Source: a virus
Length of the DNA stretch: 64,000 bases
IMG/VR virus record: IMGVR_UViG_3300032236_001503
Coordinates: 62,001-126,000 of that record
Direction: 5' to 3' (one strand)
Shown here: piece by piece, positions 8,867 through 61,479 of the stretch
Layout: each line of letters starts with the position of its first letter
Numbering within the stretch: position 1 is the stretch's first letter
The notes under the pieces: generated by a model
Seen by the model: only the letters and a program-made list of their open reading frames with translations
Told to the model about the DNA's origin: nothing
Databases searched by the model: none
Translations under genes and position numbers: made by a program

Positions 8867-9816
8867 AAATAGGTTTTTATCTACCTCATTTAGATATACA
8901 AGGAACAGGTGTTAGTTGCTTTGATTATGCATACTATAATGAAAAAATTCTTGGAAATAAATCTTATTTTTTCTGCGTCAAGAATCATCAAGGTACACAT
9001 CCTCTAGCAGAAAAAAAGTTTAAAGATAATTTAGATGTAATTGAAATAGAAAACGAATCAGACATGTTATCTTTGGATAAACATTGTAAAGATTTAGGAT
9101 TAGATGCTCTTTATATCCAAAAATTAGGTAAAAAATACGAAGGTGGTTATGTAGAAAGCACACCAATGCTTATTCATTGCGTAGGAGCCTATAATGAGCC
9201 ACATGGTAAGGTTTATTCATATGTCAGCGAATGGTTAAGTTCACATTGTTCCAATAACAGAATACCATTTGTTCCATACATGGTTCATCTACCAGAAACG
9301 GATGAAAACCTAAGAAAAGAACTTGGAATCCCATCTGATGCGATTGTTTTTGGTAGAACTGGTGGACCTTACTCATGGAATATACCATTTGTTAATGATG
9401 TGATTAAAAAAATATTAGATGAGAAAAAAAATGTGTATTTTTTATTTGCTAACACAAATCATTTTATAAATCATGATCGTGTAATATTTCATGAACCATT
9501 TGCTGATTTAATTTATAAAAGAAAATTTATAAATACGTGTGATGCGTTTTTACACGCAAGAAGTGAAGGTGAATCATTCGGTGCATCCGTAGCCGAATTC
9601 TCTATTTGTAATAAACCAATAATAACTTTTTCAAATTCACCAGAAAGAAATCATATTTTAACATTAAAGGAAAAAGGAATATATTATAATGATTTTATTT
9701 CATTATATAACATATTAAATGAATTTACACCACAAACAGATATTGAATGGAACGCATATCAAGCATTTACCCCAGAAAAAGTAATGGAAAAATTTAAAAA
9801 TGTCTTTTTAAGTTGA
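8863..9816 (+). CDS. GT4-like glycosyltransferase
   Basis: 317 residues. GFYLPHLDIQGTGVSCFDYA resembles the start of GT-B enzymes. FLHARSEGESFGASVAEFSICNKPIITF in the C-terminal half matches the GT4 donor-site block, with the E-x7-E spacing loosely kept. I chose ATG 8863 in an ATGA overlap; a TTG at 8854 is less likely. Last gene of the sugar island; a new promoter follows. Confidence 0.65.
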   Translation: MKIGFYLPHLDIQGTGVSCFDYAYYNEKILGNKSYFFCVKNHQGTHPLAEKKFKDNLDVIEIENESDMLSLDKHCKDLGLDALYIQKLGKKYEGGYVESTPMLIHCVGAYNEPHGKVYSYVSEWLSSHCSNNRIPFVPYMVHLPETDENLRKELGIPSDAIVFGRTGGPYSWNIPFVNDVIKKILDEKKNVYFLFANTNHFINHDRVIFHEPFADLIYKRKFINTCDAFLHARSEGESFGASVAEFSICNKPIITFSNSPERNHILTLKEKGIYYNDFISLYNILNEFTPQTDIEWNAYQAFTPEKVMEKFKNVFLS

Positions 9817-9840
9817 TTAAATTATTTTTCAGTGTATACT
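9813..9840 (+). promoter_or_regulatory. Early (sigma70-type) promoter for gp46-like gene
   Basis: TTGATT, 16 bases, TATACT. The -10 box ends 11 bases before ATG 9852, so the transcript would carry a leader of only a few bases. Seen by eye; no start site mapped. Confidence 0.55.
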
Positions 9841-9851
9841 TCTTTAAGTAA

Positions 9852-11648
9852 ATGAAAAAAGTTCAGTTTAATTCTGTAAAAATACAAAATTTTCTTTCTA
9901 TTGGAAAAGATCCAATAGTAATCGAATTCCAAAAAGGGATAAATCTTATTACTGGTGAGAATAAAGATAAGGGTGGCAAGAATGGAATTGGTAAAAGTTC
10001 TATATTAGAGTCAATTTATTGGTGTTTATTTGGAAATACCATTCGTGATCTCAAAAAGGATAAGATTATACACAATCTTAGTAAAAAGGATTGTAAGGTT
10101 ACTCTAGATATTTCGGTAGAAACTACGTCAGGTATAAAGAATTACTTGATAATTCGTTCAATTGAACCCACAAAAATATCTATTATTTGTGATGGTGAAG
10201 ATGTAACGCATTCTACTATGCCAGAAAACGATTCTTTTATTAAAGAAATTATCGGAGCTTCAGAAGAAGTCTTTCAGAATGCGGTCATAATGTCTGCAAA
10301 CAATACTTTGCCTTTCATGGCGCAGAAAAAAATCGATAAAAGAAAATTTATCGAAGGAATTCTTAATTTAAACATTTTTAGTGAAATGTTATTAAAGGCG
10401 AGAAGTGATTACAATGATCTAAAGAAGGAAAATGATCTCTTAAGTAATACATTCATTAATTTACAAAGAAATTTAACTACCTTTGAAGATCAAAAAGCTA
10501 ATGCTGAAACAAAAAAGCAAGAAAAGATCGACGCATTTAAAAATCGCATTAAAGAAAACGAAAAAACCATAGAAGATTTAAAGAATAATAATCTTCCTTT
10601 ACTTATTGATGTCAATAAAGAGATAAAAGAATTAGAAGATAAATGTAATACATTAAAAAATGGCGTAAAATCATTTAATAAAACAAAATCAGAACTTATA
10701 ACAAAGAGTTCAAATATATCTGCTGAAATAAGACAACTAGAAAAAGAAAAACAAAATATCATTAATAAGGGAAATACTTGCCCAACATGCAATAGAGAGT
10801 ATTGTGAGGACGATATTAAAGCAGTTCAAGAGAAATTAAAAGATATTGACTCTCAACTAATAGTTCTTGCTAACGAATCCTTTACTATTAACTCCGAAAA
10901 GATTGTTTGGGATGATAAAATCGAAGAAGTAGAAGAAGGAATTGAAAAAATCAATAAAAAAATCAGAAGTTTAGATCAAATTAAATCTGATATAAAACTT
11001 AATGATCAAAAAATTTCTAATTGCGAAGGAAATATTATAGATTGCTTAAAATGGATTGAAGAAACTAAGAAAGATGATCCATCAATTGATTCAAATATTG
11101 AAAAAACCCAAAAAGAAATTGAAAAAACCGAAAAAGAGTTGACCGATATTAAAAAAGATATGGCAATTCTTGATACTGTGAAATTTATTGTTTCGGAAGA
11201 AGGTGTTAAGACTTATATCGTTAAGAAAATGCTTACACTTCTTAACAATAAAATTAATTTTTATCTCCAAGCACTTGATACACCTTGTAAATGTGAATTT
11301 AATGAGTTGTTTGAAGAAACTATTATCAATGAAACAGGCAAAGAGTGTTCATATTTTAATTTTAGTGGTGGAGAAAGAAAAAGAATTGATACAGCAATCC
11401 TATTTATGTTTCAAGATTTATTGAGAATTCAAACCGGAACGTCATATTCTCTCAATATCTATGATGAAATGATCGATTCTGCATTAGATCAGAAGGGAAC
11501 TGATAAGATTCTTGAGTTACTTAAAGAAAAGGTTACGAAATATGATGAATCTGTCTACATTGTTAGTCATAAATCTTCCGATATGGCAAATATCGATAAC
11601 GTAATTCTTCTAGAAAAGGAAGATGGTGTAACTAAAATTGTTAGTTGA
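9852..11648 (+). CDS. 46: Recombination endonuclease subunit, Rad50/SbcC-like (T4 gp46)
   Basis: 598 residues, close to T4 gp46 (about 560). Walker A GGKNGIGKSS lies at about 41-50. Long coiled-coil arms flank a zinc hook NTCPTCNREYC near residue 310. The ABC signature FSGGERKRID (about 503-512) and Walker B LNIYDEMIDSA (about 535) are near the C-terminus. With gp47 nuclease this family resects DNA ends for recombination-dependent replication. No gp47 gene is visible in this window, although in T4 the two lie together. Has its own promoter after the sugar island. Confidence 0.92.
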   Translation: MKKVQFNSVKIQNFLSIGKDPIVIEFQKGINLITGENKDKGGKNGIGKSSILESIYWCLFGNTIRDLKKDKIIHNLSKKDCKVTLDISVETTSGIKNYLIIRSIEPTKISIICDGEDVTHSTMPENDSFIKEIIGASEEVFQNAVIMSANNTLPFMAQKKIDKRKFIEGILNLNIFSEMLLKARSDYNDLKKENDLLSNTFINLQRNLTTFEDQKANAETKKQEKIDAFKNRIKENEKTIEDLKNNNLPLLIDVNKEIKELEDKCNTLKNGVKSFNKTKSELITKSSNISAEIRQLEKEKQNIINKGNTCPTCNREYCEDDIKAVQEKLKDIDSQLIVLANESFTINSEKIVWDDKIEEVEEGIEKINKKIRSLDQIKSDIKLNDQKISNCEGNIIDCLKWIEETKKDDPSIDSNIEKTQKEIEKTEKELTDIKKDMAILDTVKFIVSEEGVKTYIVKKMLTLLNNKINFYLQALDTPCKCEFNELFEETIINETGKECSYFNFSGGERKRIDTAILFMFQDLLRIQTGTSYSLNIYDEMIDSALDQKGTDKILELLKEKVTKYDESVYIVSHKSSDMANIDNVILLEKEDGVTKIVS

Positions 11649-11677
11649 TAAACAAATACAAACTTATAAATTTCAAT

Positions 11678-12988
11678 ATGGCACTTAAACTTAAAGAACA
11701 ACCAAAACCAGTTTCAAATGGAAACATTACCTTTGAATATTCCCCTTTATATGCAGGAATACCCAATCCACCTGCTGGATTGCCAGTTGGTATGCCCGTT
11801 TATTCCCATGTTTCGTTAAAACCGATTAATATTCCTGCTCCACCACCACTTGAAATGCCAGAAAGCTCACTTCCAAGAGCATTAAATTATTATGCTGATT
11901 ACGGTGGTTGTGGTTTTTGGAGAATGATATGGCCCGAATTCATGCTAAATCAATACCAGAAGGCTTGTATATCTGGATTGACTTGCATGGTTATGGATGT
12001 TCGCTTTTATCAAGGAATAAAGGCAATTAGAATGCAAAGACAGGCAACACCAATTCAAAGAGACTTTATTAAAGAGCTTAGAAAGGCAAGTAAGCAATTT
12101 GATTTTAGATTAATCTATGAAGTTGATGATATCGTATTCAAAGATGATATCCCAGATTACAATCGCTGCAAAGATGCATTCTGTGATCAATCAATTATCG
12201 ATAGTATTTTAGAAATTATGGGTATGATGGATGAAATTACCGTTACATGTCCATTCATGAAGGAATATTATCAAAATAAAACCGGAAATAAGAATATTAC
12301 CGTTATTCCAAACTATGCACCGAAGTTTTGGCTTGATAGATTCTACGATAAACAAAAAATTGAAAGATTATACGATGAAAACAAGAAAAGACCTCGTATT
12401 CTTTATTCTGGATCAGGTACACATATTGACGTTCTCAACAGAACGGGTCTTAAAGACGATTTCCATCACGTTGTTGATGCAATTATTAAAGCTCGTAAGA
12501 AATTTAAGTTTGTTTGGAAGGGTTGTTTCCCATTAGCAGTAAAACCATACATTGATAATGGCGAAATGGAATTCCTTGATTGGTCTCCTCTTCCAAATTA
12601 CCCACAAGGTCTTGTTGACGCTAATTGTAATGCTGTTTTTGCGCCATTAGTTGATAATATATTCAACAAGTCAAAGAGTAACATCAAAATGATTGAAGCT
12701 GGTGGTCTTGGACTACCGGGTGCGTATCAGGATATGTGTACATATGCTGAAGCAGAGCAAAAATTCAAGAATGGTGATGATTTAATCAATCAATTAGAAT
12801 ATATCACCTCTGATTTTGATCGTTATATGGATCTTTCGGGTAAAGCTAGAGAGTTTACGGAAGGATTATGGCTTGAAGATCATATGGATGAGTACGAAGC
12901 ACTCTATTTCACTGATTTTGGTTCAAAAGAGAGAAAAGAAAAGGCTCCAAGACTCATAGAACTCAATCCCGACCAAGATATTTCTTGA
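11678..12988 (+). CDS. GT-B type glycosyltransferase embedded in replication block
   Basis: 436 residues. A proline-rich N-terminus (IPAPPPLEMPESSLPRA) is followed by an N-terminal Rossmann half (FRLIYEVDDIVF). The C-terminal half has VIPNYAPKFW, RPRILYSGSGTHIDV, FKFVWKGCFP and KMIEAGGLGLPGAY, the pattern of GT4-like enzymes. ATG 11678 is preferred over an in-frame TTG at 11645 that would overlap gp46. It may glycosylate a phage product, but the target cannot be read from the sequence. Confidence 0.65.
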   Translation: MALKLKEQPKPVSNGNITFEYSPLYAGIPNPPAGLPVGMPVYSHVSLKPINIPAPPPLEMPESSLPRALNYYADYGGCGFWRMIWPEFMLNQYQKACISGLTCMVMDVRFYQGIKAIRMQRQATPIQRDFIKELRKASKQFDFRLIYEVDDIVFKDDIPDYNRCKDAFCDQSIIDSILEIMGMMDEITVTCPFMKEYYQNKTGNKNITVIPNYAPKFWLDRFYDKQKIERLYDENKKRPRILYSGSGTHIDVLNRTGLKDDFHHVVDAIIKARKKFKFVWKGCFPLAVKPYIDNGEMEFLDWSPLPNYPQGLVDANCNAVFAPLVDNIFNKSKSNIKMIEAGGLGLPGAYQDMCTYAEAEQKFKNGDDLINQLEYITSDFDRYMDLSGKAREFTEGLWLEDHMDEYEALYFTDFGSKERKEKAPRLIELNPDQDIS

Positions 12989-13013
12989 TTTATGCAACCA
13001 TATGGTGCATAAT
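12985..13013 (+). promoter_or_regulatory. Early promoter for DNA polymerase gene
   Basis: TTGATT, 17 bases, CATAAT; the -10 box ends 6 bases before ATG 13020, which predicts a leaderless mRNA. The -35 box overlaps the stop codon of the upstream gene. Confidence 0.6.
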
Positions 13014-13019
13014 TGAGTA

Positions 13020-16274: not shown

Positions 16275-16302
16275 TTGATTTTGTTATAAAGTGTGTTAAA
16301 TT
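16275..16302 (+). promoter_or_regulatory. Early promoter (weak) for 130-residue protein gene
   Basis: TTGATT, 16 bases, TAAATT; the -10 box ends 6 bases before ATG 16309. The -10 match is only moderate, but the spacing repeats that of the other early promoters in the window. Confidence 0.4.
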
Positions 16303-16308
16303 TATTAT

Positions 16309-16724: not shown

Positions 16725-16762
16725 AAAAATCCCAGATTGTCTTTGACTTTCTGGGATTTTTT
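16725..16762 (+). terminator. Rho-independent terminator upstream of uvsX
   Basis: A 12-bp stem of AAAAATCCCAGA pairing with TCTGGGATTTTT around a 13-base loop, ending in a T run. It ends the 16309-16701 unit. The -35 box of the uvsX promoter lies inside the loop. Confidence 0.85.
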
Positions 16763-16770
16763 GTTATTAT
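16743..16770 (+). promoter_or_regulatory. Early promoter for uvsX, nested in terminator
   Basis: TTGACT in the loop of the preceding terminator, 16 bases (the 3' stem arm), TATTAT; the -10 box ends 7 bases before ATG 16778. Confidence 0.55.
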
Positions 16771-16777
16771 ATATTAT

Positions 16778-18151: not shown

Positions 18152-18180
18152 TTGCTTTTGTGTGAGAAGCAATCTATAAT
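18152..18180 (+). promoter_or_regulatory. Early promoter for gp41 helicase gene
   Basis: TTGCTT, 17 bases, TATAAT (perfect -10); the -10 box ends 6 bases before ATG 18187, predicting a leaderless transcript. Confidence 0.65.
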
Positions 18181-18186
18181 ATTCTA

Positions 18187-19584: not shown

Positions 19585-19607
19585 TAGGTTAGTAGTAAAT
19601 AACCTTA

Positions 19608-23393: not shown

Positions 23394-24384
23394 CCAAGAT
23401 CCATTATGTAATCCCCCATTATTGGATTCATCATTGTTTCCAACTGGTTCTACCTTGGCTACACAAGGTTCTGATTACAATATATTACCATTTTTATGTA
23501 ATTTAGTTAATCTAGCAACTAACCCAAATGTAGATCCCGTATTAGTTACGCCTCCAGCATACGATTGGACACCACATGTAAACTTTTCAGCATTAACTGG
23601 TGTTGGTGATCCTAGGTTCTCAGATGGTGCGATTTTATCCGCTTGTTTCACTGAATTTTTACCAAAAATATTAACGCAGCTTGAGGTTAAAAAAGCTGGT
23701 GGTTATCAAGTCGTAGACACATACATTTGCGATGCCGATGGCAATCCAATTTTAACAAAAACCGAACAACCAATTCAAACTACAGTTGGAAACGGTAATA
23801 TAAATTTATATGGGTATCAGATAGGTTCTGTAACAACAGAACAATTAATGGAACCAATTACTGAGCAATCTATTGCTACATTTTATGCTAATTATATTCA
23901 ATCGCAGCAAAATATTTATGCTGGAGCTTTTGCTACATATATAAACACGGTTTACACACCAACTGCATGCAAAAACAACGTATTTTCTTCTAATGGTTGG
24001 AGAGCCACCTTAAACACGACATCCATATTCCCTTTATTTTACGTTCAATTAGACTTTTTAATCAATGGCAATGTTGATCATAGTGTATATTTAAAATATT
24101 ATAATGATTCTCAACAAGCAGTTCTCAATAATTTAATTAGTCTTAATTATATACCCAATAATTCAGTAATAAATGTTCAACCAACAATGAAAGCATCAAG
24201 TAATGCAATGATTGCAATGGTTATGAATCCAATTCCTGATTATACAAATACTAATAATTTTGTTAATATCGCAACAAACCAAGTGAATATGTTCTCAGCA
24301 TCGGTTCTTCAAAATTATACGAACCAATATAGTACTTTTATTAAAAATCCGTCAGCATTTAAAGCTACTTATAAGCTCAGTTAA
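23386..24384 (+). CDS. Putative virion protein
   Basis: 332 residues, not recognised. Asn/Thr/Tyr/Gln-rich with repeated NTNNF-like stretches, the composition of the structural proteins encoded convergently. It overlaps the upstream gene by 8 bases, and its stop codon overlaps the stop of the spike gene on the other strand. Transcribed with the replication block, yet structural in composition. Confidence 0.6.
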   Translation: MSNQDPLCNPPLLDSSLFPTGSTLATQGSDYNILPFLCNLVNLATNPNVDPVLVTPPAYDWTPHVNFSALTGVGDPRFSDGAILSACFTEFLPKILTQLEVKKAGGYQVVDTYICDADGNPILTKTEQPIQTTVGNGNINLYGYQIGSVTTEQLMEPITEQSIATFYANYIQSQQNIYAGAFATYINTVYTPTACKNNVFSSNGWRATLNTTSIFPLFYVQLDFLINGNVDHSVYLKYYNDSQQAVLNNLISLNYIPNNSVINVQPTMKASSNAMIAMVMNPIPDYTNTNNFVNIATNQVNMFSASVLQNYTNQYSTFIKNPSAFKATYKLS

Positions 24385-26465: not shown

Positions 26466-26471
26466 ATTATA

Positions 26472-26479
26472 TATTTATG
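26472..26479 (-). promoter_or_regulatory. Late promoter for spike gene
   Basis: CATAAATA read on the minus strand, 6 bases before the ATG at 26465. One mismatch from the T4 late box TATAAATA. Confidence 0.6.
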
Positions 26480-29260: not shown

Positions 29261-29268
29261 ATTTTTAG

Positions 29269-29296
29269 TTGATATTTATAAATTTACCTCTATAAT
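29269..29296 (+). promoter_or_regulatory. Early promoter for dNMP kinase gene
   Basis: TTGATA, 16 bases, TATAAT; the -10 box ends 6 bases before ATG 29303. The spacer contains the divergent late promoter box. Confidence 0.65.
29273..29280 (-). promoter_or_regulatory. Late promoter for hub operon
   Basis: Exact TATAAATA on the minus strand, 12 bases before the ATG at 29260. It lies inside the -35/-10 spacer of the divergent early promoter. Confidence 0.7.
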
Positions 29297-29302
29297 ATAT
29301 TT

Positions 29303-34304: not shown

Positions 34305-34308
34305 CGTT

Positions 34309-34316
34309 AATAAATA
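34309..34316 (+). promoter_or_regulatory. Late promoter for 34322 gene
   Basis: AATAAATA, one mismatch from TATAAATA, 5 bases before the GTG start at 34322. Confidence 0.45.
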
Positions 34317-34321
34317 CTTAT

Positions 34322-38189: not shown

Positions 38190-38195
38190 ATATAA

Positions 38196-38203
38196 TATTT
38201 ATA
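38196..38203 (-). promoter_or_regulatory. Late promoter for tape measure gene
   Basis: Exact TATAAATA on the minus strand, 6 bases before the ATG at 38189. Confidence 0.7.
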
Positions 38204-39032: not shown

Positions 39033-39037
39033 GAGAT

Positions 39038-39045
39038 TATTTATA
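39038..39045 (-). promoter_or_regulatory. Late promoter for chaperone gene
   Basis: Exact TATAAATA on the minus strand, 5 bases before the ATG at 39032. Confidence 0.7.
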
Positions 39046-40737: not shown

Positions 40738-40742
40738 AATAA

Positions 40743-40750
40743 TATTTATG
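40743..40750 (-). promoter_or_regulatory. Late promoter for second tube gene
   Basis: CATAAATA on the minus strand, 5 bases before the ATG at 40737. Confidence 0.6.
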
Positions 40751-41305: not shown

Positions 41306-41312
41306 ATGTTAA

Positions 41313-41320
41313 TATTTATC
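41313..41320 (-). promoter_or_regulatory. Late promoter for tail tube gene
   Basis: GATAAATA on the minus strand, 7 bases before the ATG at 41305. Confidence 0.6.
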
Positions 41321-43809: not shown

Positions 43810-43821
43810 ATTTTCTAAATG

Positions 43822-43829
43822 TATTTACC
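43822..43829 (-). promoter_or_regulatory. Late promoter for sheath gene
   Basis: GGTAAATA on the minus strand, 12 bases before the ATG at 43809; a weaker match to TATAAATA but the same GGTAAATA form as upstream of 55946. Confidence 0.45.
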
Positions 43830-43891: not shown

Positions 43892-44167
43892 ATGAATAAA
43901 TATGATTTATTAGTAGCTTCTATTCTTGAAGAATCAAATTGCACCAAAGTAACTCAAAAAACTCATTCAACTAGAAAAGGTAAGAAGTGGATGAAATGTG
44001 TTAAAAATCCAAAGGGTGGATATAAGAGAATCCATTGGGGACAAGCTGGTGTGAGAGTTACTGGTAAATCTGGAAATACAAAGAGAAAGAAATCATTTAG
44101 AGCTAGACATAAATGCTCATCAGCAAAACCGGGTACGCCTAAATATCAAGCTTGTAAAGATTGGTAA
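43892..44167 (+). CDS. Small basic Cys-containing protein, possible internal head protein
   Basis: 91 residues. The N-terminus MNKYDLLVASILEESN is a short helix ending in ILE|E, like T4 prohead-protease targeting peptides. The rest is very basic with SFRARHKCSSAKPGTPKYQACKDW, a conserved-looking block seen in large phage genomes. The ATG at 43892, after an AGGAG, is preferred over 43793, which lies inside the sheath gene. Role unknown; a DNA-binding capsid protein is plausible. Confidence 0.65.
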   Translation: MNKYDLLVASILEESNCTKVTQKTHSTRKGKKWMKCVKNPKGGYKRIHWGQAGVRVTGKSGNTKRKKSFRARHKCSSAKPGTPKYQACKDW

Positions 44168-44180
44168 TAAGTATTATAAT
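44152..44180 (+). promoter_or_regulatory. Early-type promoter for 44187 gene
   Basis: TTGTAA, 17 bases, TATAAT (perfect -10), ending 6 bases before ATG 44187. It overlaps the end of the previous gene. Confidence 0.55.
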
Positions 44181-44186
44181 AAAAAC

Positions 44187-46245: not shown

Positions 46246-46274
46246 TTGACATGTTATTTGCAATATTGTAATAT
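46246..46274 (+). promoter_or_regulatory. Strong early promoter for membrane protein gene
   Basis: TTGACA (perfect -35), 17 bases, TAATAT, ending 7 bases before ATG 46282. The distance puts the expected start site at or next to the ATG. Confidence 0.65.
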
Positions 46275-46281
46275 TGCTTAT

Positions 46282-47608: not shown

Positions 47609-47959
47609 TTATTTTTCTAGATAAGGTTTACCTGTTATTGGATTTCTTTTTATTTTGACACCATTAGCTAATGATTTACCTTTGGTTCCAATTTTATTAA
47701 TATTGATTTTTCCACCATTAGAGCTTTTAGCTATAATCTTTTTAAGTTCAACTTGTGATGCAACTGGTACTTTTGTTTTTGGGTTGTTGTTTGCTCTCTT
47801 AACTTTTTGATTTTTTCTTTGTTCTTTTTTAATACTATCTGCCACTAATCCCATTGACTTTGGAATAACTGCACTTGCTATTTTAGATCCAGTTGCAGCT
47901 GCTATGGATTGGTGATGAGGACCACTCTTACGTTCTAAGAAAAATTGCTTGAAGTTCAT
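47609..47959 (-). CDS. Basic hypothetical protein, possible internal head protein
   Basis: 116 residues, very basic (NQKVKRANNNPKTKVP, GVKIKRNPITGKP). The short N-terminal helix MNFKQFFLERKSG resembles the targeting peptides of T4 internal proteins, though its FLE is not a perfect (I/L)xE site. Encoded just after a terminator and before the putative neck gene. Confidence 0.65.
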   Translation of the reverse strand: MNFKQFFLERKSGPHHQSIAAATGSKIASAVIPKSMGLVADSIKKEQRKNQKVKRANNNPKTKVPVASQVELKKIIAKSSNGGKININKIGTKGKSLANGVKIKRNPITGKPYLEK

Positions 47960-47976
47960 TAATATTACTTACCAAC

Positions 47977-48025: not shown

Positions 48026-48931
48026 TTATTCTCCACGCTGATCGTCAAAGAGGAACTTACCAGCTTTTACACCCTTTGCATCATGGGATGCCTTGGCTTG
48101 AAGTTTACTTACACCTTCTTTGTTTTCGAAAGCTTCTGGCTTACCAGTTACTTTCTTACCCTTTACAACTTCAGCCTTTGTGCCAGCCTTTGGTACTGCA
48201 CCCTTAACGTTCCATGCAGTTTTCTTTGTGTGACCAGCTTCTAACTTTTCTTGGTCAACGAGAGCGTGTCCGAGAACTTCAGCATCAACAGCTTCTTCAC
48301 TGAGATCTTCATCTTCGTGTTCTGTTTCTTCTTCACCCTCTTCTCTTGAATCCTCTGGGAACTCCTCGCCCTCTTCTCCCTCTTCATGTTCGATATGACC
48401 TTCTAAGTGGGACTCAAGTTTACCAACTAATTCTTTAAGTTGTGAAACAAGGGATTCAAGATCCTCATGTTCGTCTTCTTCAAAATCTTCTACGTCATCC
48501 TCGTCACCAAATGCCTCTTCGTCACTGAGTTCTTCATCATGACCACCAAGACCTTCAGGACCACCGAAATTATCTTCTGGTTGTACACCCTCTTCTGAAC
48601 CAAATGCAAATGAATCTTCGGAAATGATCTTATTGAATAACACATCAAATGGATTTCTTGAATCCTTTAATGTTAACTTCTCACTAGCCTTGAATTCCTT
48701 TGGCTCATTTTCTGGATCTTCTGAGAGTTCAGCAGGTGCTTCAACTGGAGCTTTAACATCTTTCTTGGCTTTTTCTACGCCAGAATCTTTATAGAAAGTT
48801 TCGGTATTCTTTTTATTTTCGGAATGACCAAATGGTTCTCCAACTTTTAAGGATTGTCCTTCGACTTTTCCAGATGCTGAGTTTTCTTCAATTACCTTGA
48901 GGTAGGCTGATGTGAGAGGATCTTGTTTCAT
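48026..48931 (-). CDS. Highly acidic protein, possible prohead core/scaffold
   Basis: 301 residues. Positions about 110-220 are dominated by Glu and Asp (EEAFGDEDDVEDFEEDEHED, HEEGEEGEEFPEDSREEGEE) with one coiled-coil-like helix (LESLVSQLKELVGKLESHL). The ends are basic. The N-terminus SAYLKVIEENS and an internal KIISEDSFAF offer (I/L)xE-type cleavage sites. Acidic, cleavable proteins of this size act as prohead core scaffolds in T4-like phages. Own late promoter and terminator. Confidence 0.7.
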   Translation of the reverse strand: MKQDPLTSAYLKVIEENSASGKVEGQSLKVGEPFGHSENKKNTETFYKDSGVEKAKKDVKAPVEAPAELSEDPENEPKEFKASEKLTLKDSRNPFDVLFNKIISEDSFAFGSEEGVQPEDNFGGPEGLGGHDEELSDEEAFGDEDDVEDFEEDEHEDLESLVSQLKELVGKLESHLEGHIEHEEGEEGEEFPEDSREEGEEETEHEDEDLSEEAVDAEVLGHALVDQEKLEAGHTKKTAWNVKGAVPKAGTKAEVVKGKKVTGKPEAFENKEGVSKLQAKASHDAKGVKAGKFLFDDQRGE

Positions 48932-48943
48932 ATGTGTTTTGAA

Positions 48944-48951
48944 TATTTACT
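48944..48951 (-). promoter_or_regulatory. Late promoter for acidic protein gene
   Basis: AGTAAATA on the minus strand, 12 bases before the ATG at 48931; it overlaps the stop of the upstream gene. Confidence 0.4.
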
Positions 48952-49228: not shown

Positions 49229-50076
49229 GCGTTATTAATTAATAATTCTGCTTCTCTTTCGAGATTAAGAATATTTATCAACTCGTAATCATCTTGACCA
49301 GCAACCCAAATAATATTACAATCACCAACTTCAAATGGTGTATTTCTTTCTAGTATTAGTTTATACAAACAAAGCTGAAGACTATATTTACCAAGTTCAC
49401 ATTTAGGAACCGTATCAATTGGTGATAACATAGTTTCACCTTTATAACCTTGCCTTTTTATTTCCTTATTAGTTTTATAATCGAATAAGGCAAGTTTACC
49501 AGTTTTCTTATTAAATGAAAGGTTATCAATGGTTCCACAGATTTTAGTTTCTTTATCACCAACGACAAATTCAGATTTTAGAAGAATATGATCTTGTCTC
49601 CACCATTCATAAAAATTTTTAAAATTCTTAAGCATAAGAGCCATATCCATATAATATGTTGCGAGTTGATCATCGGTATATCGACCATTATGTTTTCTGT
49701 TTAAGAATTTAATAATGTCTTCCTTATCAATCGGGATAGTTCTCCTCTGATAAAATTCTTCAACCATTAAATGAAACTCGTTGCCTTTATGACAAGAGTA
49801 ATCTTTATTATATTCCCATTGCCATAAAACATCTTCAACTAATTTACCATCTCTTTTTGCAACCCTGTGTGCAATACTATTATCAAATGGTTTTTCGTAT
49901 TTTGAAATAAGTTGAGAAACAGACATTGCTGCTCTCTTACCATCAATTTCGTAATGGTGATCCTTCTCAAAAAACTTGATAGAAGAAAATGCTTCTTCTA
50001 AAAGTATTAAGCTATTAAAATTAATTTCTACCGAATCCGACGATTCTTTCTTTATCTTCATTTGTTTTTTCTTCAT
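49225..50076 (-). CDS. PD-(D/E)XK nuclease (Cas4/RecB-like)
   Basis: 283 residues. The nuclease core has CHKGNEFHLMVEEF (conserved His/Glu), CGTIDNLSF (Asp), LALFDYKTNK (D-x-K-like catalytic strand) and YSLQLCLYKLILE (QxxxY), the RecB/Cas4 order. No Cys cluster for an iron-sulphur centre is evident. ATG 50076 or 50061 (five residues shorter) may be the start; either overlaps the AAA ATPase gene. It probably degrades or processes DNA ends together with its neighbours. Confidence 0.75.
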   Translation of the reverse strand: MKKKQMKIKKESSDSVEINFNSLILLEEAFSSIKFFEKDHHYEIDGKRAAMSVSQLISKYEKPFDNSIAHRVAKRDGKLVEDVLWQWEYNKDYSCHKGNEFHLMVEEFYQRRTIPIDKEDIIKFLNRKHNGRYTDDQLATYYMDMALMLKNFKNFYEWWRQDHILLKSEFVVGDKETKICGTIDNLSFNKKTGKLALFDYKTNKEIKRQGYKGETMLSPIDTVPKCELGKYSLQLCLYKLILERNTPFEVGDCNIIWVAGQDDYELINILNLEREAELLINNA

Positions 50077-51235
50077 TTAAATCAACTTCTTTTTCCAGAT
50101 TATAAATATCAGCAACTGACATTGGTTTGGTAATGTCATCGATAGTTTTCTTTTTATATTTCAAACTCTTTGCGAGTTTTTTTGCATCCGATATTGGCAA
50201 TGCACCAAACTCGTAATCAACTTGCAATCTTCCTTTTCTCCTAAGTGCCGAATCAATTTCATTCTTTGGGCAGTTGTAAGTTAATATCACAGAAGTCTTT
50301 AAGATATCACTCATAATACCATCGGATAGATTAAGGAGAGAAGAAACCGCAGATGAATCCATACCATCACCGTGTCTTTTCATGATTGCTTTCTCCGCAT
50401 CTTCTAAAATAATAACCGAATTGGGCTTTTGAATTAAAACACTTAAGCAATTGGGATCAGAGGTAAATGTCTCAACCATAGTAGTTGGGATATAAATAAA
50501 GTCCCTATCAACCTGACTAGCAAGATATTTAATATATGTAGTTTTACCAGTACCCGGTAACCCATGAAACATAAACAACCCACTCTTATTATTTGTTAAT
50601 CTTTCTTTAATGGTTTTATCAGTTTCCAAAAACTTTGATCCATAATTAAGTTCAAGATCAATGTTTTCGGGTACATTTACACTAATAGGCTCAAATGAAT
50701 AATCACCATATTGATTCTTTATGAACAAATGAACCTTTGATCCTTCTTCTTTGGATATGAATTTTTCAAAATCTTCAAAGTGATAATCTTGAACACTAGT
50801 TGGTGCAGCTATCATAATATCATATTTTTTAGTATTAATTTTATTTTCTTTTCTAGCCTTTTCGTCTTCGTCAAAATTAAACGGAAGACCAGCAACATCC
50901 ATTGTCATGTTGTCATCTTCTTGTCCACTTGCTGAAAGTTTGATATAAATGTCTTTATAATGAAACCAAAATGTGCCACCCCTAAAATGTTTGTAATTTT
51001 TAGTTAAATGCTTTATTTTACCTGTTGAACTTGATTTAATAAGTTTGGAATTTTCCAAAAGAAAGTCAAAAACATCTTCGTTAAATTTTTCATCAATGAA
51101 GAAAAATGAAGGAGAACAGTCATAAGTTTTTGAAATGAAACGAGTTATATTAAAATCATTTCCATTTGATAATGAATACAAATCTTTATTATCTTCGTTA
51201 TGTTTGTAGATCTTGGATTCTTTTAACTTAAACAT
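50021..51235 (-). CDS. AAA ATPase (BCS1-like)
   Basis: 404 residues. Walker A HGLPGTGKTTY is at about 224-234 and Walker B NSVIILEDAEKAI near 275; VILTYNCPKNEIDSALRRKGR is sensor 1 and the arginine finger region. The N-terminal 200 residues form an unrecognised domain. BCS1-like AAA proteins remodel or unfold partners; here it is coupled by overlap with the PD-(D/E)XK nuclease and has its own early promoter. Confidence 0.82.
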   Translation of the reverse strand: MFKLKESKIYKHNEDNKDLYSLSNGNDFNITRFISKTYDCSPSFFFIDEKFNEDVFDFLLENSKLIKSSSTGKIKHLTKNYKHFRGGTFWFHYKDIYIKLSASGQEDDNMTMDVAGLPFNFDEDEKARKENKINTKKYDIMIAAPTSVQDYHFEDFEKFISKEEGSKVHLFIKNQYGDYSFEPISVNVPENIDLELNYGSKFLETDKTIKERLTNNKSGLFMFHGLPGTGKTTYIKYLASQVDRDFIYIPTTMVETFTSDPNCLSVLIQKPNSVIILEDAEKAIMKRHGDGMDSSAVSSLLNLSDGIMSDILKTSVILTYNCPKNEIDSALRRKGRLQVDYEFGALPISDAKKLAKSLKYKKKTIDDITKPMSVADIYNLEKEVDLNEEKTNEDKERIVGFGRN

Positions 51236-51241
51236 CCATTA

Positions 51242-51269
51242 AATCTAACACAAATATCATATAAAGCAA
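51242..51269 (-). promoter_or_regulatory. Early promoter for AAA/nuclease operon
   Basis: On the minus strand TTGCTT, 16 bases, TAGATT, ending 6 bases before the ATG at 51235. Divergent from the promoter at 51284. Confidence 0.45.
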
Positions 51270-51283: not shown

Positions 51284-51312
51284 TTGACTTTTTGGCTTAG
51301 ATATTCGATAAT
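51284..51312 (+). promoter_or_regulatory. Early promoter for small membrane protein
   Basis: TTGACT, 17 bases, GATAAT, ending 7 bases before ATG 51320. Confidence 0.6.
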
Positions 51313-51319
51313 ATAAGCA

Positions 51320-51517
51320 ATGAAAATTGCTATCATTGTTACAGTTGTCCTATTTTCTCTTTTAGTCCTACCATTATTAATAATCTGGAGTTTAAACAAT
51401 ATTTTTAAACTTGGGATTGCTTACAATGTTTCGGATTGGTTTTCAATTTTAGTGCTACTTACAATTTTAAATGCCATTTTTAAGGCATCCGTAACACCAT
51501 CAAAAAAAGATAAATAG
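51320..51517 (+). CDS. Small two-helix membrane protein
   Basis: 65 residues with transmembrane helices at about 4-26 (AIIVTVVLFSLLVLPLLIIW) and 41-56 (FSILVLLTILNAIF) and a basic tail. Not recognised. First gene after a strong early promoter, so probably made early; it may act on the host membrane. Confidence 0.7.
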   Translation: MKIAIIVTVVLFSLLVLPLLIIWSLNNIFKLGIAYNVSDWFSILVLLTILNAIFKASVTPSKKDK

Positions 51518-51523
51518 TAGGGT

Positions 51524-51907: not shown

Positions 51908-51929
51908 TACAATTTACTAAATAAAATTT

Positions 51930-52901
51930 ATGATATTCGAAGAACAAATCAGCCGTAAACCCAACCATTACAAATGGACAGAAGAATTTATCGAAGCTAT
52001 GCACAATGGTTTCTGGACAGATAAAGAATTTAATTTTAAATCTGACGTTCAACAATTCAAAGTGAATTTAAACGATCAGGAAAGAGACATTATCATTCGC
52101 ACCCTTTCAGCAATTGGTCAAATTGAAATTGCTGTAAAAACATTTTGGGCAAAACTCGGAGAGAATCTCCCTCATCCATCATTAACCGATCTTGGTTATG
52201 TAATGGCTAACGTAGAAGTTATTCATAATAATGCTTACGAAAGACTTATATCAGTCCTTGGACTTGAAGATGTATTTGAAAAGAATTTAAAGTTGAGTTG
52301 GATAGAAGGTCGTGTGAAATATCTAAGAAAATACACCCATCGTTTTTATAAAGATAGTAAAAAGCAGTATCTATATGCTCTCATTTTATTCACACTCTTT
52401 GTTGAGAATGTTTCCTTATTCTCACAATTCTATGTTATCAATTGGTTTGCTCGTTTTAAGAATGTTCTTAAAGATACAGATCAACAAGTAAAATATACTC
52501 GTAACGAAGAAAATATTCATGCTCTTGTTGGTATTAAGATTATTAATACAATTCGTGAGGAATATCCTGATTTATTCGATGATGAACTTGAACAGAGAAT
52601 TACACATGAAGCAAAGATGGCATTTGAATCGGAATCAGAAATTGTCGATTGGATGGTTAATGGAATCCAAGAAGAAAATTTAACTGCTCCTATTTTAAAA
52701 GAATTCATTAAGAATCGTATTAATGAATCACTTGCTCAAATCGGTTTTAAGCAACCATTTGAAATTAATAAAGATCTTTTAAGTAAAACTAAATGGTTTG
52801 AAGAAGAACTTCTTGGTAATAATATGACTGATTTTTTCCATTCTAGACCAGTAGAATACTCAAAGAAGAATCAATCGTTCACGGAAGACGATTTATTCTA
52901 A
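51930..52901 (+). CDS. nrdB: Ribonucleotide reductase, small subunit NrdB (class I)
   Basis: 323 residues. Metal ligands appear at Glu66 (IGQIEIAVKTFW, Glu where many enzymes have Asp), Glu96 and His99 (NVEVIHNNAY), Glu159 (LFVENVS), Glu194 and His197 (EENIHA). The radical Tyr is present as Tyr103, four residues after His99. It makes the radical for NrdA, encoded 51 bases downstream, in dNDP synthesis. Confidence 0.93.
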   Translation: MIFEEQISRKPNHYKWTEEFIEAMHNGFWTDKEFNFKSDVQQFKVNLNDQERDIIIRTLSAIGQIEIAVKTFWAKLGENLPHPSLTDLGYVMANVEVIHNNAYERLISVLGLEDVFEKNLKLSWIEGRVKYLRKYTHRFYKDSKKQYLYALILFTLFVENVSLFSQFYVINWFARFKNVLKDTDQQVKYTRNEENIHALVGIKIINTIREEYPDLFDDELEQRITHEAKMAFESESEIVDWMVNGIQEENLTAPILKEFIKNRINESLAQIGFKQPFEINKDLLSKTKWFEEELLGNNMTDFFHSRPVEYSKKNQSFTEDDLF

Positions 52902-52952: not shown

Positions 52953-54620
52953 ATGAGTACCGAAACGCAGAATTCCGACATTTATTGGCTTAACAAAGAT
53001 TCTAGAAAGTTCCTTCAAAGAGGTTATTTGTTAGAAGGCGAAACACCAGAGCAAAGAATTCATGATATTGCAAAAACAGCCGAAAAGTTTTTAATCAAAA
53101 CTGGCTTTGCAAAAAAGTTTGAGAACTATATGCACAGAGGATTTTATTCTCTCGCATCTCCTATTTGGTCGAACTTTGGTCGCAAGAGGGGTCTTCCTAT
53201 TTCTTGTTTTGGTTCTTATATTGAAGATACTATTGAAAGTATCTTAGGAACTAAACACGGAGAAGTAGCTGTAATGACAAAGACAGGCGGTGGAACTTCT
53301 GGATATTTTGGAGAAATAAGAGGAAGAGGAGAGTCGATTTCTTCTAATGGTGAATCTACTGGTTCTGTCCATTTTATGGAGAGTTACAATAAACTAATGA
53401 ATGTAGTTTCTCAAGGTAATGTAAGAAGAGGTAGCTTTGCTGCATATCTACCAATTGACCATAAAGATATTGAAGAATTTTTAAAAATTCGCTCGGAAGG
53501 AAATGAGATACAAGATCTATCTATCGGTGTGTGTGTTTCTGATGAGTGGATGAAGTCCATGCTTGATGGCGATAAGGAAAAAAGAAGAATTTGGGGTCTT
53601 GTTATCAAGAAGCGTTTTGAATCGGGTTATCCTTATATCTTCTTTAAAGACAATGCAAATAATCAAGCACCGCAAGTTTATAAAGATAAAGGATTAACAA
53701 TTCACCATAGCAATCTTTGTAGCGAAATCATGCTTCCTAATTCACCAGATGAATCATTTGTTTGTGATTTATCATCAATGAATCTTGAGCGTTGGGAAGA
53801 ATGGAAGGATACTGATGCAGTCGAAACGATGATTTGGTTTTTGGATGCAGTGATGGAAGAGTTTATTGAAAAAACCGAAGGGATGAAATTCATGGAAGCT
53901 GCTAGAAAGTTTGCTATTCGTCATCGTGCATTAGGTCTTGGTGTTCTCGGTTGGCATTCACTTTTGCAATCCAAGATGATTGCATTTGAATCGATGGAAG
54001 CAAAGTTCCTTAATGGAACTATTTGGAAAACTATCCGTGAAAGAGCAGATAAGGCAACAGCTGAACTTGCTCAAAAATACGGTGAACCAGATATCCTTCA
54101 AGGATATGGTCGTAGAAACACAACTACGCTTGCTGTTGCACCCACAACATCTTCCTCATTTATTCTGGGGCAAGTATCTCCAAGCATTGAACCTAACAAT
54201 AGTAACTACTATGTTAAGGATCTTGCTAAAGGAAAGTTCTCATATAAGAATCCTTATCTTAAGAAACTTTTGAAAGAAAAAGGTAAAAATGATGATGATA
54301 CTTGGCTTGATATTCTCAAGCATAGTGGATCGGTTCAGCATTTAGATTTTCTTACGCAAGAAGAAAAAGATGTATTTAAGACATTTGAAGAAACATCTCA
54401 AAGGGAAATTATCATTCAAGCTGCTGGTAGACAAAGGTATATTGATCAGGGTCAAAGTTTAAACATGCTTATCCCTGCTGGTACACCCCCTAAAGCAGTT
54501 AATGAGCTTATCATCTTTGCTTGGGAAAATGGAATCAAGAGTCTTTATTATCAAAGATCTACCAATCCAGCCAAAGAATTAGCTAGATCAATTATGACTT
54601 GCAAATCATGTGAAGCATAA
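52953..54620 (+). CDS. nrdA: Ribonucleotide reductase, large subunit NrdA (class I)
   Basis: 555 residues, short for the family (about 750) because the N-terminal ATP-cone regulatory domain is missing. Active-site Cys are in LPISCFGSY and FVCDLSSMNL; the radical loop is HHSNLCSEIMLP (N, C, E); the C-terminal redox pair is CKSCEA. An in-frame TTG at 52905 would add 16 residues. Lack of the ATP cone suggests loss of overall dATP inhibition, as expected in a phage. Confidence 0.9.
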   Translation: MSTETQNSDIYWLNKDSRKFLQRGYLLEGETPEQRIHDIAKTAEKFLIKTGFAKKFENYMHRGFYSLASPIWSNFGRKRGLPISCFGSYIEDTIESILGTKHGEVAVMTKTGGGTSGYFGEIRGRGESISSNGESTGSVHFMESYNKLMNVVSQGNVRRGSFAAYLPIDHKDIEEFLKIRSEGNEIQDLSIGVCVSDEWMKSMLDGDKEKRRIWGLVIKKRFESGYPYIFFKDNANNQAPQVYKDKGLTIHHSNLCSEIMLPNSPDESFVCDLSSMNLERWEEWKDTDAVETMIWFLDAVMEEFIEKTEGMKFMEAARKFAIRHRALGLGVLGWHSLLQSKMIAFESMEAKFLNGTIWKTIRERADKATAELAQKYGEPDILQGYGRRNTTTLAVAPTTSSSFILGQVSPSIEPNNSNYYVKDLAKGKFSYKNPYLKKLLKEKGKNDDDTWLDILKHSGSVQHLDFLTQEEKDVFKTFEETSQREIIIQAAGRQRYIDQGQSLNMLIPAGTPPKAVNELIIFAWENGIKSLYYQRSTNPAKELARSIMTCKSCEA

Positions 54621-54627
54621 ATATAAT
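54599..54627 (+). promoter_or_regulatory. Early promoter for HNH protein gene
   Basis: TTGCAA, 17 bases, TATAAT (perfect -10), ending 9 bases before ATG 54637; it overlaps the end of nrdA. Confidence 0.5.
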
Positions 54628-54636
54628 AGTTAGATT

Positions 54637-55224: not shown

Positions 55225-55625
55225 AAAGCTGGGAACAATACGCATATGATCTTGCCATAGTCGCTGCGAGTAAGTCTAAAGATCCTTATGTAAAAGTTGG
55301 ATGTTGTTTACTCAGAGATGACAATAGTGTTGCATCTTTAGGTTATAATGGATTTCCTGCTGGTATGCTAGAGGATTGGTCGGATCGTGATGAACGCAGA
55401 AAATACGTTGTTCACTCTGAAATTAATGCACTTCGTTATATTAAACCTAATGAGTGCTATTTAGCTGCGACAACACTCCTCCCCTGCAATGATTGTTTAA
55501 AATCTCTTGCATCCTATGGGATTAAGAAGATCATATACGGCGAGGTCTATAAACAAGACCCATCAACTCTTGAACTAGCTAAAAAGTTCGGAATTGAATT
55601 AGTCAATATCGTGTCTGTAGACTAA
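55221..55625 (+). CDS. cd: dCMP deaminase
   Basis: 134 residues. Zinc motifs are VVHSEINAL (HxE) and TLLPCNDCLKSLA (PCxxC), in the order of deoxycytidylate deaminases; the N-terminus SWEQYAYDLAIVAASKSKDP and GYNGFPAGM are also typical. It converts dCMP to dUMP, the ThyX substrate. Starts in an ATGA overlap with the HNH gene; the 3' end overlaps the convergent gene by 27 bases. Confidence 0.92.
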   Translation: MKSWEQYAYDLAIVAASKSKDPYVKVGCCLLRDDNSVASLGYNGFPAGMLEDWSDRDERRKYVVHSEINALRYIKPNECYLAATTLLPCNDCLKSLASYGIKKIIYGEVYKQDPSTLELAKKFGIELVNIVSVD

Positions 55626-55946
55626 TACGTTAGCTACCTTCACAATATGTTCTTCTGCTGATGTAATCAGATCTTGCATCCAAGGTTCAATCACACTACC
55701 TTTCTTTATTGCATCAACTGCCTGATGAGCATGCGCAACAACCGAGCGTAGGCGAGTTTCAACCATACGGATTTTTTCATGTTCTAAATTTTCTAAATTT
55801 TCACCATCTTCTAAGTGTTCAGATGGTTCGATATCCTTACTGAAGTCACTATCATCTTCATGATGTGAATGCTCTTCTGGTGCAACTTCAAAGGAAGCAA
55901 CTTCTTCATATGCTTCCATTAAACTTCTGATATCTTTTTTATTCAT
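55599..55946 (-). CDS. Acidic protein, possible prohead core component
   Basis: 115 residues. N-terminus MNKKDIRSLMEAYEEV is a short helix of the targeting-peptide type; residues 20-55 are very acidic with His (EEHSHHEDDSDFSKDIEP). The C-terminal half is helical (MVETRLRSVVAHAHQAVDAI, EPWMQDLITSAEEHIVKVAN), a pattern I associate with conserved small proteins of large phages. Own late-type promoter. Overlaps the dCMP deaminase gene. Confidence 0.65.
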   Translation of the reverse strand: MNKKDIRSLMEAYEEVASFEVAPEEHSHHEDDSDFSKDIEPSEHLEDGENLENLEHEKIRMVETRLRSVVAHAHQAVDAIKKGSVIEPWMQDLITSAEEHIVKVANVLVYRHDID

Positions 55947-55952
55947 ATGGAA

Positions 55953-55960
55953 TATTTACC
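55953..55960 (-). promoter_or_regulatory. Late-type promoter for 55946 gene
   Basis: GGTAAATA on the minus strand, 6 bases before the ATG at 55946; the same form as upstream of the sheath gene. Confidence 0.45.
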
Positions 55961-58054: not shown

Positions 58055-58064
58055 TGATGATTTA

Positions 58065-58957: not shown

Positions 58958-58958
58958 A

Positions 58959-59521: not shown

Positions 59522-59522
59522 A

Positions 59523-60083: not shown

Positions 60084-60090
60084 ATTAATA

Positions 60091-60876
60091 TTATAATTTT
60101 GTTGAACACTCTTTAATAATATTCTTACAGGTATTAATATAATCGGATTCCATTTCGATTATATTAATATTATCTTCAAATAGAATAAATGGTGAGTGAG
60201 TTGAAATAATGATTTGAAATTTGTCTTGAAAACTCTTAAGAAGTCTAAACAATTCAATTTGCTTTGGAATTGAAAGTGACTTCTCTGGTTCATCAAGAAG
60301 AATAGTAACTTTACCATTACGAGGAAGAGAACGAATGTATTGAACTTCCATTTGTTCAAATCTGTTACCGGGATTTGGCGTAGTTAAAGTAAAATCAGGT
60401 GGATTCATTGCGATGTTAAAAATCTTATTTAACTTTTGCATACGAGTCTGACCAGAAGACGGTCTTCTTGCCATATAATCCATCTGCTCTGCTGGTGAAG
60501 TCAATCCTTCTTGAGCTAGGATATCTTTATTGTAAAACCATGCCATATCATCAATACGAAGATCACTATCATTATAAAAGGTAGGAGTTCCATCCCATTC
60601 AACAATGGTATCACATTCTTTAGTCGGGGTTAATGCACGATAAACCATCGGGAAGTTTTTAACTCCACCAACACCTAATGACATGTAGTTACTGATCTTA
60701 CTCCAGCCACCATGTTCAATTGCACAATAAGCTTTGATACATTTCATGAGTGTGGATTTACCACAACCATTACTACCAAATAATACGTTAAATCCATCAT
60801 TAAATTGGAATACTCTGTCCTTTAGACAAACCAATTCTGATGCGAACCCTTTTAATACTTTTACTCTATTAATCAT
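60091..60876 (-). CDS. ABC-type ATPase (SMC/RecF/OLD-like)
   Basis: 261 residues. Walker A VLFGSNGCGKSTLMK (31-45), a likely signature region RPSSGQTRMQK near 143, Walker B VTILLDEPEKSLS and the H-loop IIISTHSPFIL are clear. The part between motifs is short and lacks long coiled coils. Such stand-alone ATPases serve in DNA repair or in defence-like pairs. Its start overlaps the coiled-coil partner gene by 4 bases. Confidence 0.82.
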   Translation of the reverse strand: MINRVKVLKGFASELVCLKDRVFQFNDGFNVLFGSNGCGKSTLMKCIKAYCAIEHGGWSKISNYMSLGVGGVKNFPMVYRALTPTKECDTIVEWDGTPTFYNDSDLRIDDMAWFYNKDILAQEGLTSPAEQMDYMARRPSSGQTRMQKLNKIFNIAMNPPDFTLTTPNPGNRFEQMEVQYIRSLPRNGKVTILLDEPEKSLSIPKQIELFRLLKSFQDKFQIIISTHSPFILFEDNINIIEMESDYINTCKNIIKECSTKL

Positions 60877-61445
60877 GACTTTTTATTTATATTAACTTGT
60901 GAATTAATCAATTTCAATTCTTCAACTTGCTTTTCAAGTTTTACAACTCTTAAAGCTAAATCCGAAGTTGCTTGCTCCCAAGTGGTATCTACACTATATC
61001 CACCCCAATGTATAGGATATATTGGATGTTTTTGTAATCTTACATCACCACAATCCTTTGGTGGAAAAATCTTTAATGAGTTATTTTCATTTTTAACATC
61101 TTGCAGATCCTTTTTTAGTTTATCAATTGTTTCCTTTGCTCCATCGATTATCTTATGAAGAGCCTTGATTTGAAGCTCTAGCTTTTGATTTAATTCACCA
61201 ACTGGTTCACATGCATAACAAGAGCCTTGATAACCATCTCTATATTTTGCAAGCATTTCCATTAGATCAACATTCTCTTGCTTAAGATGTCTGAGATCTT
61301 TAATCTCTTTCATAAGCTCGTCAATAATTTCTTGTTGTTCCTGTAGATAACCAACTGGTTCCCAATCTGTAGTAGGAAACGGAGATAATCCATTATCTTC
61401 TAAAATTTCATCAACACTTTTTTTTGGGGGAAATAAATTGAACAT
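60873..61445 (-). CDS. Coiled-coil protein coupled to ATPase
   Basis: 190 residues. Coiled coils at about 35-65 (LQEQQEIIDELMKEIKDLRH) and 85-120 (LNQKLELQIKALHKIIDGAK), with a CYAC pair between them, then a C-terminal helix (ALRVVKLEKQVEELKLINSQ). First gene of a unit with a perfect -35 box; overlaps the ATPase gene by 4 bases, so it is probably its partner. Confidence 0.75.
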   Translation of the reverse strand: MFNLFPPKKSVDEILEDNGLSPFPTTDWEPVGYLQEQQEIIDELMKEIKDLRHLKQENVDLMEMLAKYRDGYQGSCYACEPVGELNQKLELQIKALHKIIDGAKETIDKLKKDLQDVKNENNSLKIFPPKDCGDVRLQKHPIYPIHWGGYSVDTTWEQATSDLALRVVKLEKQVEELKLINSQVNINKKS

Positions 61446-61451
61446 AACACT

Positions 61452-61479
61452 ATGATAGATGAAATTATATGGATGTCAA
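61452..61479 (-). promoter_or_regulatory. Strong early promoter for coiled-coil/ATPase unit
   Basis: On the minus strand TTGACA (perfect -35), 16 bases, TATCAT, ending 6 bases before the ATG at 61445. Confidence 0.6.

Follow-up and report, generated by a model that had tools for sequence, protein, structure and literature searches.

The late promoters of bacteriophage T4 carry a TATA box that lies about one helical turn from the transcription start, +1 (PMC2988020). Messenger RNAs without a leader are known from other phages and from some bacteria. The lambda cI transcript, an established leaderless phage mRNA, begins at the AUG (mentioned in PMC9031893), and most middle and late mRNAs of the Thermus phage phiYS40 are leaderless, with a rise in host IF2 and a fall in IF3 reportedly favouring leaderless translation (PMC3594737). 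In bacteria, TA-like boxes about 12 nucleotides (nt) upstream of start codons mark leaderless genes; in Actinobacteria and Deinococcus-Thermus these make up more than 20% of cellular genes (PMC3160421). Such genes of both groups have the -10 box against the start codon and no Shine-Dalgarno (SD) sequence (PMC3160421, PMC12340547), and those of D. radiodurans depend weakly on other elements. The present analysis concerns a window of 64,000 nt (the whole stretch of DNA analysed, bases 62,001-126,000 of the 163,237-bp IMG/VR virus record IMGVR_UViG_3300032236_001503) in which sigma70-type early promoters and T4-type late promoters both lie directly before ATG codons, an arrangement from which most genes that head a transcript would probably be expressed as leaderless or near-leaderless mRNAs.

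Judged by its core genes, the record is a divergent T4-like myovirus of the T4 superfamily. Profile matches (PHROG/Pfam) identify a gp46-like SbcC (E-value 4e-100), the gp43 PolB polymerase (1.5e-183), UvsX, the gp41 helicase, gp32, terminase, portal (5e-97), a gp23-type capsid protein (major head, 5e-90), sheath and tube, in a genome of about 32% GC. Megablast of 20 kb gave no match, and no close relation to any cultured genus is seen, the core proteins being about 30-37% identical to those of cultured phages; IMG/VR contains many uncultured relatives whose proteins are 40-90% identical.

As in T4, a TATAAATA box precedes virion genes. A candidate gp55-like sigma gene lies next to a gp47-like gene. 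In T4, however, the box is mostly 12-35 nt before the ATG and about half of the starts have an SD sequence, whereas here the distance is 5-7 nt, SD sequences are near background and TAAGTA is a common variant. phiYS40 is likewise a large phage with leaderless mRNAs, but it belongs to a different phage lineage and its host is a thermophilic member of the Deinococcota, a phylum with many leaderless genes; in the T4-like phage described here, early sigma70 and T4-type late promoters both abut the AUG. Actinobacteria and Deinococcus-Thermus share the abutting -10 box and the absence of SD sequences; in those phyla this holds for more than 20% of cellular genes, whereas here it is the dominant mode of one virus, whose early genes also have a -35 element. 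Lambda cI is one gene, not a genome-wide case. In HTVC008M, a cultured T4-like Pelagibacter phage (L184, L189), about eight genes have a late box at a distance of exactly 5 nt from the ATG, and most of these lack an SD sequence; late mRNAs without a leader would probably result, in a phage that can be grown in culture. This is a partial version of the layout, with SD sequences at 44% of starts and few early promoters at start codons. In the open-access literature, no description of such a layout was found for T4-like phages.

Early and late promoters at start codons

In what follows, the gap is the number of nt between the end of a box and the ATG, and spaced starts are the 103 with 12 nt or more of free DNA upstream. 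The early motif is the E. coli consensus and the late motif is that published for T4. (A first caller gave 175 genes; a second, simpler caller stands behind all comparisons.) The preliminary description had listed twelve sigma70-type pairs whose -10 box ends 6-11 nt before an ATG. All twelve were found again (Table 1), ten of them at 6-7 nt, with spacers of 16-17 nt. Strict pairs (TTGACA with at most one mismatch, 16-18 nt, TATAAT with at most two) occur eight times at gap 6 and eight times at gap 7 before the 168 ATG starts, where 0.3-0.4 are expected from 6,462 non-start ATGs. A sigma70-type pair ends 4-9 nt before the ATG at 27 of the 103 spaced starts, against 1.5 +/- 1.2 (maximum 6) in 200 dinucleotide shuffles. 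When the -10 element is ignored, the TTGAC pentamer by itself clusters 34-38 nt before the ATG. The preliminary description would have been refuted had the -10 boxes shown no positional peak beyond AT content; this check was run and did not refute it. The peak is sharp at 6-7 nt and well above the shuffles, which together with the non-start ATGs reject chance or AT content as its source. Two of the twelve sites (16309 and 51235) match the consensus weakly, and the orthologs of both retain early-type pairs at gaps 5-9. Two others (44187 and 54637) additionally have a late-type TAARTA 13 nt upstream of the ATG, and the 42-nt intergenic region that contains the promoter of 29303 also contains a late promoter on the opposite strand.

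The preliminary description had placed this layout at early genes; that part stands, but the restriction does not, since the layout is no less marked at the T4-type late promoters. TAAATA or TAAGTA ends 4-9 nt before the ATG at 33 of the 103 spaced starts (dinucleotide shuffles, 2.3 +/- 1.4, maximum 6), and TAA[AGT]TA peaks at gaps 5 (11), 6 (12) and 7 (6). A test that is independent of gene calling took every RTAARTA in the record and counted the ATGs after it: there are 10, 15 and 14 at gaps 5, 6 and 7, and 0-7 at other gaps. The corresponding counts in relatives, which share ancestry and so are not independent, are 47, 51 and 23, with other gaps mostly at 5-18 and gap 12 at 30. TTG gives no peak in this test and GTG a small one (39 ATG against 6 GTG at gaps 5-7). 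The two kinds of box sort by function: replication genes have early-type boxes, and tail and other virion genes have late-type ones, the TATAAATA-like box upstream of virion genes being that of T4-type late transcription. Late boxes lie further upstream in T4 and Cr30, in S-CRM01 (mostly gap 18-30) and in the Desulfovibrio phage SRB7757 (30-33).

That SD sequences are rare at the starts had been noted before and is confirmed: SD-like tetramers occur at 10% of starts, with 5% at a control position. The share, about 5-10% of starts, compares with about 50% in T4; it is 40-44% in HTVC008M, 37-41% in Cr30 and 57-59% in SRB7757, and is also low, 18-21%, in S-CRM01. ATG is the start codon of 168 of the 175 genes.

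Where the upstream space is 12-119 nt, looser motifs find a near promoter, early or late (4-12 nt from the ATG), at about 80% of genes, over a background of about 5%; these motifs were loosened after inspection of the data, and the shuffle test, though stricter, was likewise written after the starts had been seen. Many intergenic gaps are only 12-50 nt long, and compact packing might push promoters against the ATG and leave short leaders as an incidental result. The near-promoter share is, however, 80%, 79% and 80% in the record, and 78%, 84% and 81% in relatives, for 12-29, 30-59 and 60-119 nt of free DNA (flank expectation, 4-9%), the widest class comprising 8 of 10 own starts and 59 of 73 relatives' starts. 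In T4 the same spacing classes give 0-10%, and T4 and other compact T4-like phages keep SD sequences and late boxes further upstream. With box spacing independent of intergenic length, packing was rejected as an extremely improbable cause.

Of the 189 called starts, 86 overlap the upstream gene or sit less than 12 nt from it, and these mostly lack a promoter of their own; 54 overlap outright (21 as ATGA overlaps), with a near promoter at only 8 (15%). Such downstream genes are probably translated by coupling. The earlier claim that most early genes are leaderless can thus be kept for genes that head a transcript, but not for these overlapping or abutting ones.

Transcript starts, conservation and alternative readings

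The sigma70 -10 hexamer occupies -12 to -7, with +1 about 6 nt after it, and the T4 late box is centred near -10, some one helical turn from +1. If T4/E. coli geometry applies, +1 in genes with gaps of 5-7 would therefore fall on the A of the AUG or within about 3 nt of it. By this sequence geometry only, the -10 placement puts +1 at the start codon; SD sequences are near background and AUG is strongly preferred at the promoter-proximal start, as expected of leaderless mRNAs. The proposal that transcripts start at or near the AUG is further supported by the sharpness of the peak, its large excess over shuffles and its conservation in relatives; T4, Cr30, S-CRM01 and SRB7757 do not have it.

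Dozens of IMG/VR relatives retain both the gap and the lack of SD sequences at individual genes, with up to 51 orthologs per gene. Upstream DNA diverges between these relatives; the boxes and the ATG are maintained. Among sheath relatives at 37-42% identity the late peak is still present, with SD sequences at 4-5%, and a wide sample of capsid relatives at greater distance has an ATG peak at gap 5 (61 against about 10). Conservation also bears on the idea that start codons have been mis-assigned and that the true starts lie downstream, behind ordinary leaders and SD sequences. Some called starts are indeed uncertain (there are alternative starts, and that of the terminase was corrected), but in orthologs at 40-90% identity the alignment begins at residue 1, and the ATG is retained despite upstream divergence. 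Among 67 near-promoter genes, 64 have no earlier in-frame start, and in 57 the 36 nt upstream contain an in-frame stop. The ortholog N-termini and the in-frame stops reject mis-called starts as a general cause, and there is scarcely any likelihood left for it.

A different reading takes the AT-rich boxes as non-SD translation signals, unstructured A/T stretches of the kind seen in Bacteroidota, with transcription starting further upstream. A/T-rich sequence does precede the starts of many SD-poor bacteria, the genome is itself AT-rich, and operon-internal starts here are also largely without SD. However, the early boxes are paired with a -35 element (spacing 16-18 nt), and TTGAC peaks too far upstream for the usual ribosome-binding region. 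The late box is that of T4 and is sharply positioned, and shuffling of dinucleotides fails to produce the peaks. Starts that overlap the upstream gene must be translated but require no promoter, and most of them lack both boxes. This reading is therefore considered very unlikely.

Somewhat better placed, though still unlikely, is the view that ultra-short leaders of about 3-10 nt are the rule and that initiation follows some SD-independent route other than recognition of a 5'-AUG. In its favour, a second class of late boxes is found 11-13 nt before the ATG, at genes 27689-29260, 41335-43809 and 48026-48931 (all on the minus strand), and is conserved for the sheath gene (41335-43809, modal gap 12) and for 48026; the choice of start site may also drift by a few nt. 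The leader of this class would be 5-8 nt, too short for an SD sequence. Against it, the main peaks lie at gaps 5-7 (late) and 6-7 (early), which would put +1 on or next to the A of the AUG.

Several observations weigh against leaderless expression as the general rule. No near promoter was recognised at about 20% of spaced starts, several of which are probably mis-called. With its degenerate early motif, the record has weak sites at 16309 and 51235 that are supported mainly by conservation, and the most distant relatives give a thin early-type signal. Start sites of sigma70 promoters can vary by about 2 nt, and some transcripts may carry leaders of 1-3 nt. Finally, a few starts do have SD-like sequences, namely the record's own gp32 gene, the capsid gene and some starts within operons. 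The gp32 gene has AAGGAG; among relatives an SD sequence is seen in 1 of 28 (the most distant one), and most have an early pair near the ATG. The major capsid gene (G000:21638-23104, outside the window) lacks a near promoter, and its SD-like AGGAG(G) is retained in most close relatives, the leader in L191-L211 being ATTCTATCCATAGGAG(G)-like. Since this gene is SD-led, the host ribosomes are apparently still able to use SD sequences, which suggests that anti-SD function is retained and that the use of leaders is selective.

Features of the window, the record and the host

Table 1. Promoter elements placed before start codons in the window (gap, nt from the end of the box to the ATG)
Feature	Position	Strand	Elements	Gap	Remarks
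Early, SbcC/gp46-like gene 9852	9813..9851	+	TTGATT-16-TATACT	11	upstream pairs also in relatives
Early, DNA polymerase (gp43) gene 13020	12985..13019	+	TTGATT-17-CATAAT	6	inverted repeat in spacer
Early, gene 16309	16275..16308	+	TTGATT-16-TAAATT	6	weak match; orthologs gap 6-9
Early, uvsX 16778	16743..16777	+	TTGACT-16-TATTAT	7	overlaps terminator-like hairpin; orthologs gap 6-8
Early, DnaB/gp41-like helicase 18187	18152..18186	+	TTGCTT-17-TATAAT	6	inverted repeat spans -35/-10
Early, gene 29303	29269..29302	+	TTGATA-16-TATAAT	6	
Early, gene 44187	44152..44186	+	TTGTAA-17-TATAAT	6	TAAGTA 13 nt before ATG
Early, gene 46282	46246..46281	+	TTGACA-17-TAATAT	7	early pair at gap 5-9 in 17/25 orthologs
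Early, AAA-ATPase gene 50021-51235	51236..51269	-	TTGCTT-16-TAGATT	6	weak match; gap 5-9 in 13/14 orthologs
Early, gene 51320	51284..51319	+	TTGACT-17-GATAAT	7	
Early, HNH/endonuclease VII-like gene 54637	54599..54636	+	TTGCAA-17-TATAAT	9	TAAATA 13 nt before ATG
Early, gene 60873-61445	61446..61479	-	TTGACA-16-TATCAT	6	
Late, gene 19608	19596..19607	+	AGTAAATA	6	
Late, gene 24381-26465	26466..26477	-	CATAAATA	6	
Late, gene 27689-29260	29261..29278	-	TATAAATA	12	short-leader class
Late, terminase large subunit, ATG 34304	34305..34320	-	TAAGTA	10	gap 6-11 in 13/14 orthologs
Late, gene 36138-38189	38190..38201	-	TATAAATA	6	orthologs gap 6-7
Late, gene 38223-39032	39033..39043	-	TATAAATA	5	gap 5-7 in 24/37 orthologs
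Late, gene 40021-40737	40738..40748	-	CATAAATA	5	gap 5-6 in 23/28 orthologs
Late, tail tube gene 40766-41305	41306..41318	-	GATAAATA	7	gap 5-7 in 31/45 orthologs
Late, tail sheath gene 41335-43809	43810..43827	-	GGTAAATA	12	short-leader class; modal gap 12, 51 orthologs
Late, gene 47609-47959	47960..47971	-	GGTAAGTA	6	
Late, gene 48026-48931	48932..48949	-	AGTAAATA	12	gap 11-13 in 12/18 orthologs
Late, gene 51524	51511..51523	+	GATAAATA	7	orthologs mostly gap 5-8
Late, gene 51930-52901 (probable NrdB)	51918..51929	+	ACTAAATA	6	
Late, gene 55599-55946	55947..55958	-	GGTAAATA	6	

The start of the terminase large subunit gene (32424-34304, minus strand) is probably the ATG at 34304 and not the TTG at 34442 that opens the longest reading frame, because the late box precedes 34304 in orthologs. 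The product of 51930-52901 is a probable NrdB, with a ribonucleotide reductase small-chain Pfam match in the scanned set (member not named).

Inverted repeats lie inside the early promoters at 12985-13019, 16743-16777 and 18152-18186 and also occur in the relatives L008, L012, L013 and L015. The arms of the polymerase-gene repeat covary between relatives (TGCACC/GGTGCA in some, TGCAGT/ACTGCA in others), as do those of the helicase gene, and the uvsX repeat is terminator-like, with a T run that overlaps the -35 element. Fold z-scores are strong (-5.6 to -7.4). Possibly these repeats are 3' ends of upstream transcripts that have been incorporated into the next promoter.

The rest of the 163-kb record was read as separate stretches, and the labels G000, L004, L006 and L007 refer to DNA outside the window. 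A protein with a sigma70 region-2 match just above the Pfam cut-off is encoded at G000:59131-59826, adjoining a gene in the gp47 position; this is no direct match to a gp55 profile, and the protein is provisionally a candidate gp55-like sigma. Adenylosuccinate synthetase-like and IMPDH/GMP reductase-like proteins are encoded on L004, L006 and L007 and could relate to purine supply or to a modified base, and 18 tRNA genes lie at L006:4486-12505 and L007:1756-2139. Within the window, an overlapping gene run at about 446-9816 has family matches in the scanned set to fucosyltransferase, GT25, GT47, FkbM and epimerases; such sugar-transfer and sugar-modifying functions suggest surface glycan modification.

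A host was sought with the polymerase against one genome for each of 84,980 GTDB species, and only T4-like contigs of about 30% identity, in mixed bins, were found. Because these contigs have SD sequences and lack the late-box peak, the layout is not general to the T4 superfamily. Bacteroidota, being SD-poor, were considered as hosts and may still include the host. Promoters of that phylum are of the -33/-7 type, unlike the TTGAC/TATAAT early promoters with 16-17 nt spacing found here. A bS21 gene was looked for in this connection and not found.

Proposed mechanism and its meaning

In the favoured reading of promoters fused to start codons, host RNA polymerase would read TTGAC-N16/17-TATAAT at replication genes, the -10 usually ending 6-7 nt before the ATG, and virion genes would be read from TATAAATA or TAAGTA, ending 5-7 nt before the ATG, presumably by the phage's gp55-like sigma. 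We infer that the ribosome recognises such mRNAs through their 5'-terminal AUG. At the sheath gene, 48026 and 27689, it would meet the short, SD-less leader described above, and overlapping or abutting downstream genes would be reached by translational coupling.

Leaderless phage mRNA is already known; what is new is the fusion of early as well as late promoters to start codons across a T4-like lineage. It is reasonably likely that a large environmental T4-like lineage places nearly all of its transcript-leading genes on ATG-fused promoters, so that sigma recognition also fixes translation initiation, and keeps an SD leader only for a handful of highly abundant proteins, the major capsid protein among them. 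The usual view of leaderless initiation is that it is rare, or that it belongs to the cells of a few phyla. If the proposal is true, a whole viral lineage, within the best-understood large-phage system, has abandoned SD leaders for host-sigma and viral-sigma promoters, and its hosts, or a ribosome change made by the phage, would have to be strongly competent for leaderless initiation. The layout is a sequence signature for start calling, and possibly for host prediction, in such genomes. It also offers natural ortholog pairs, leadered in T4 and leaderless here, together with the SD-led capsid gene of the same phage, for testing how ribosomes choose between the two modes.

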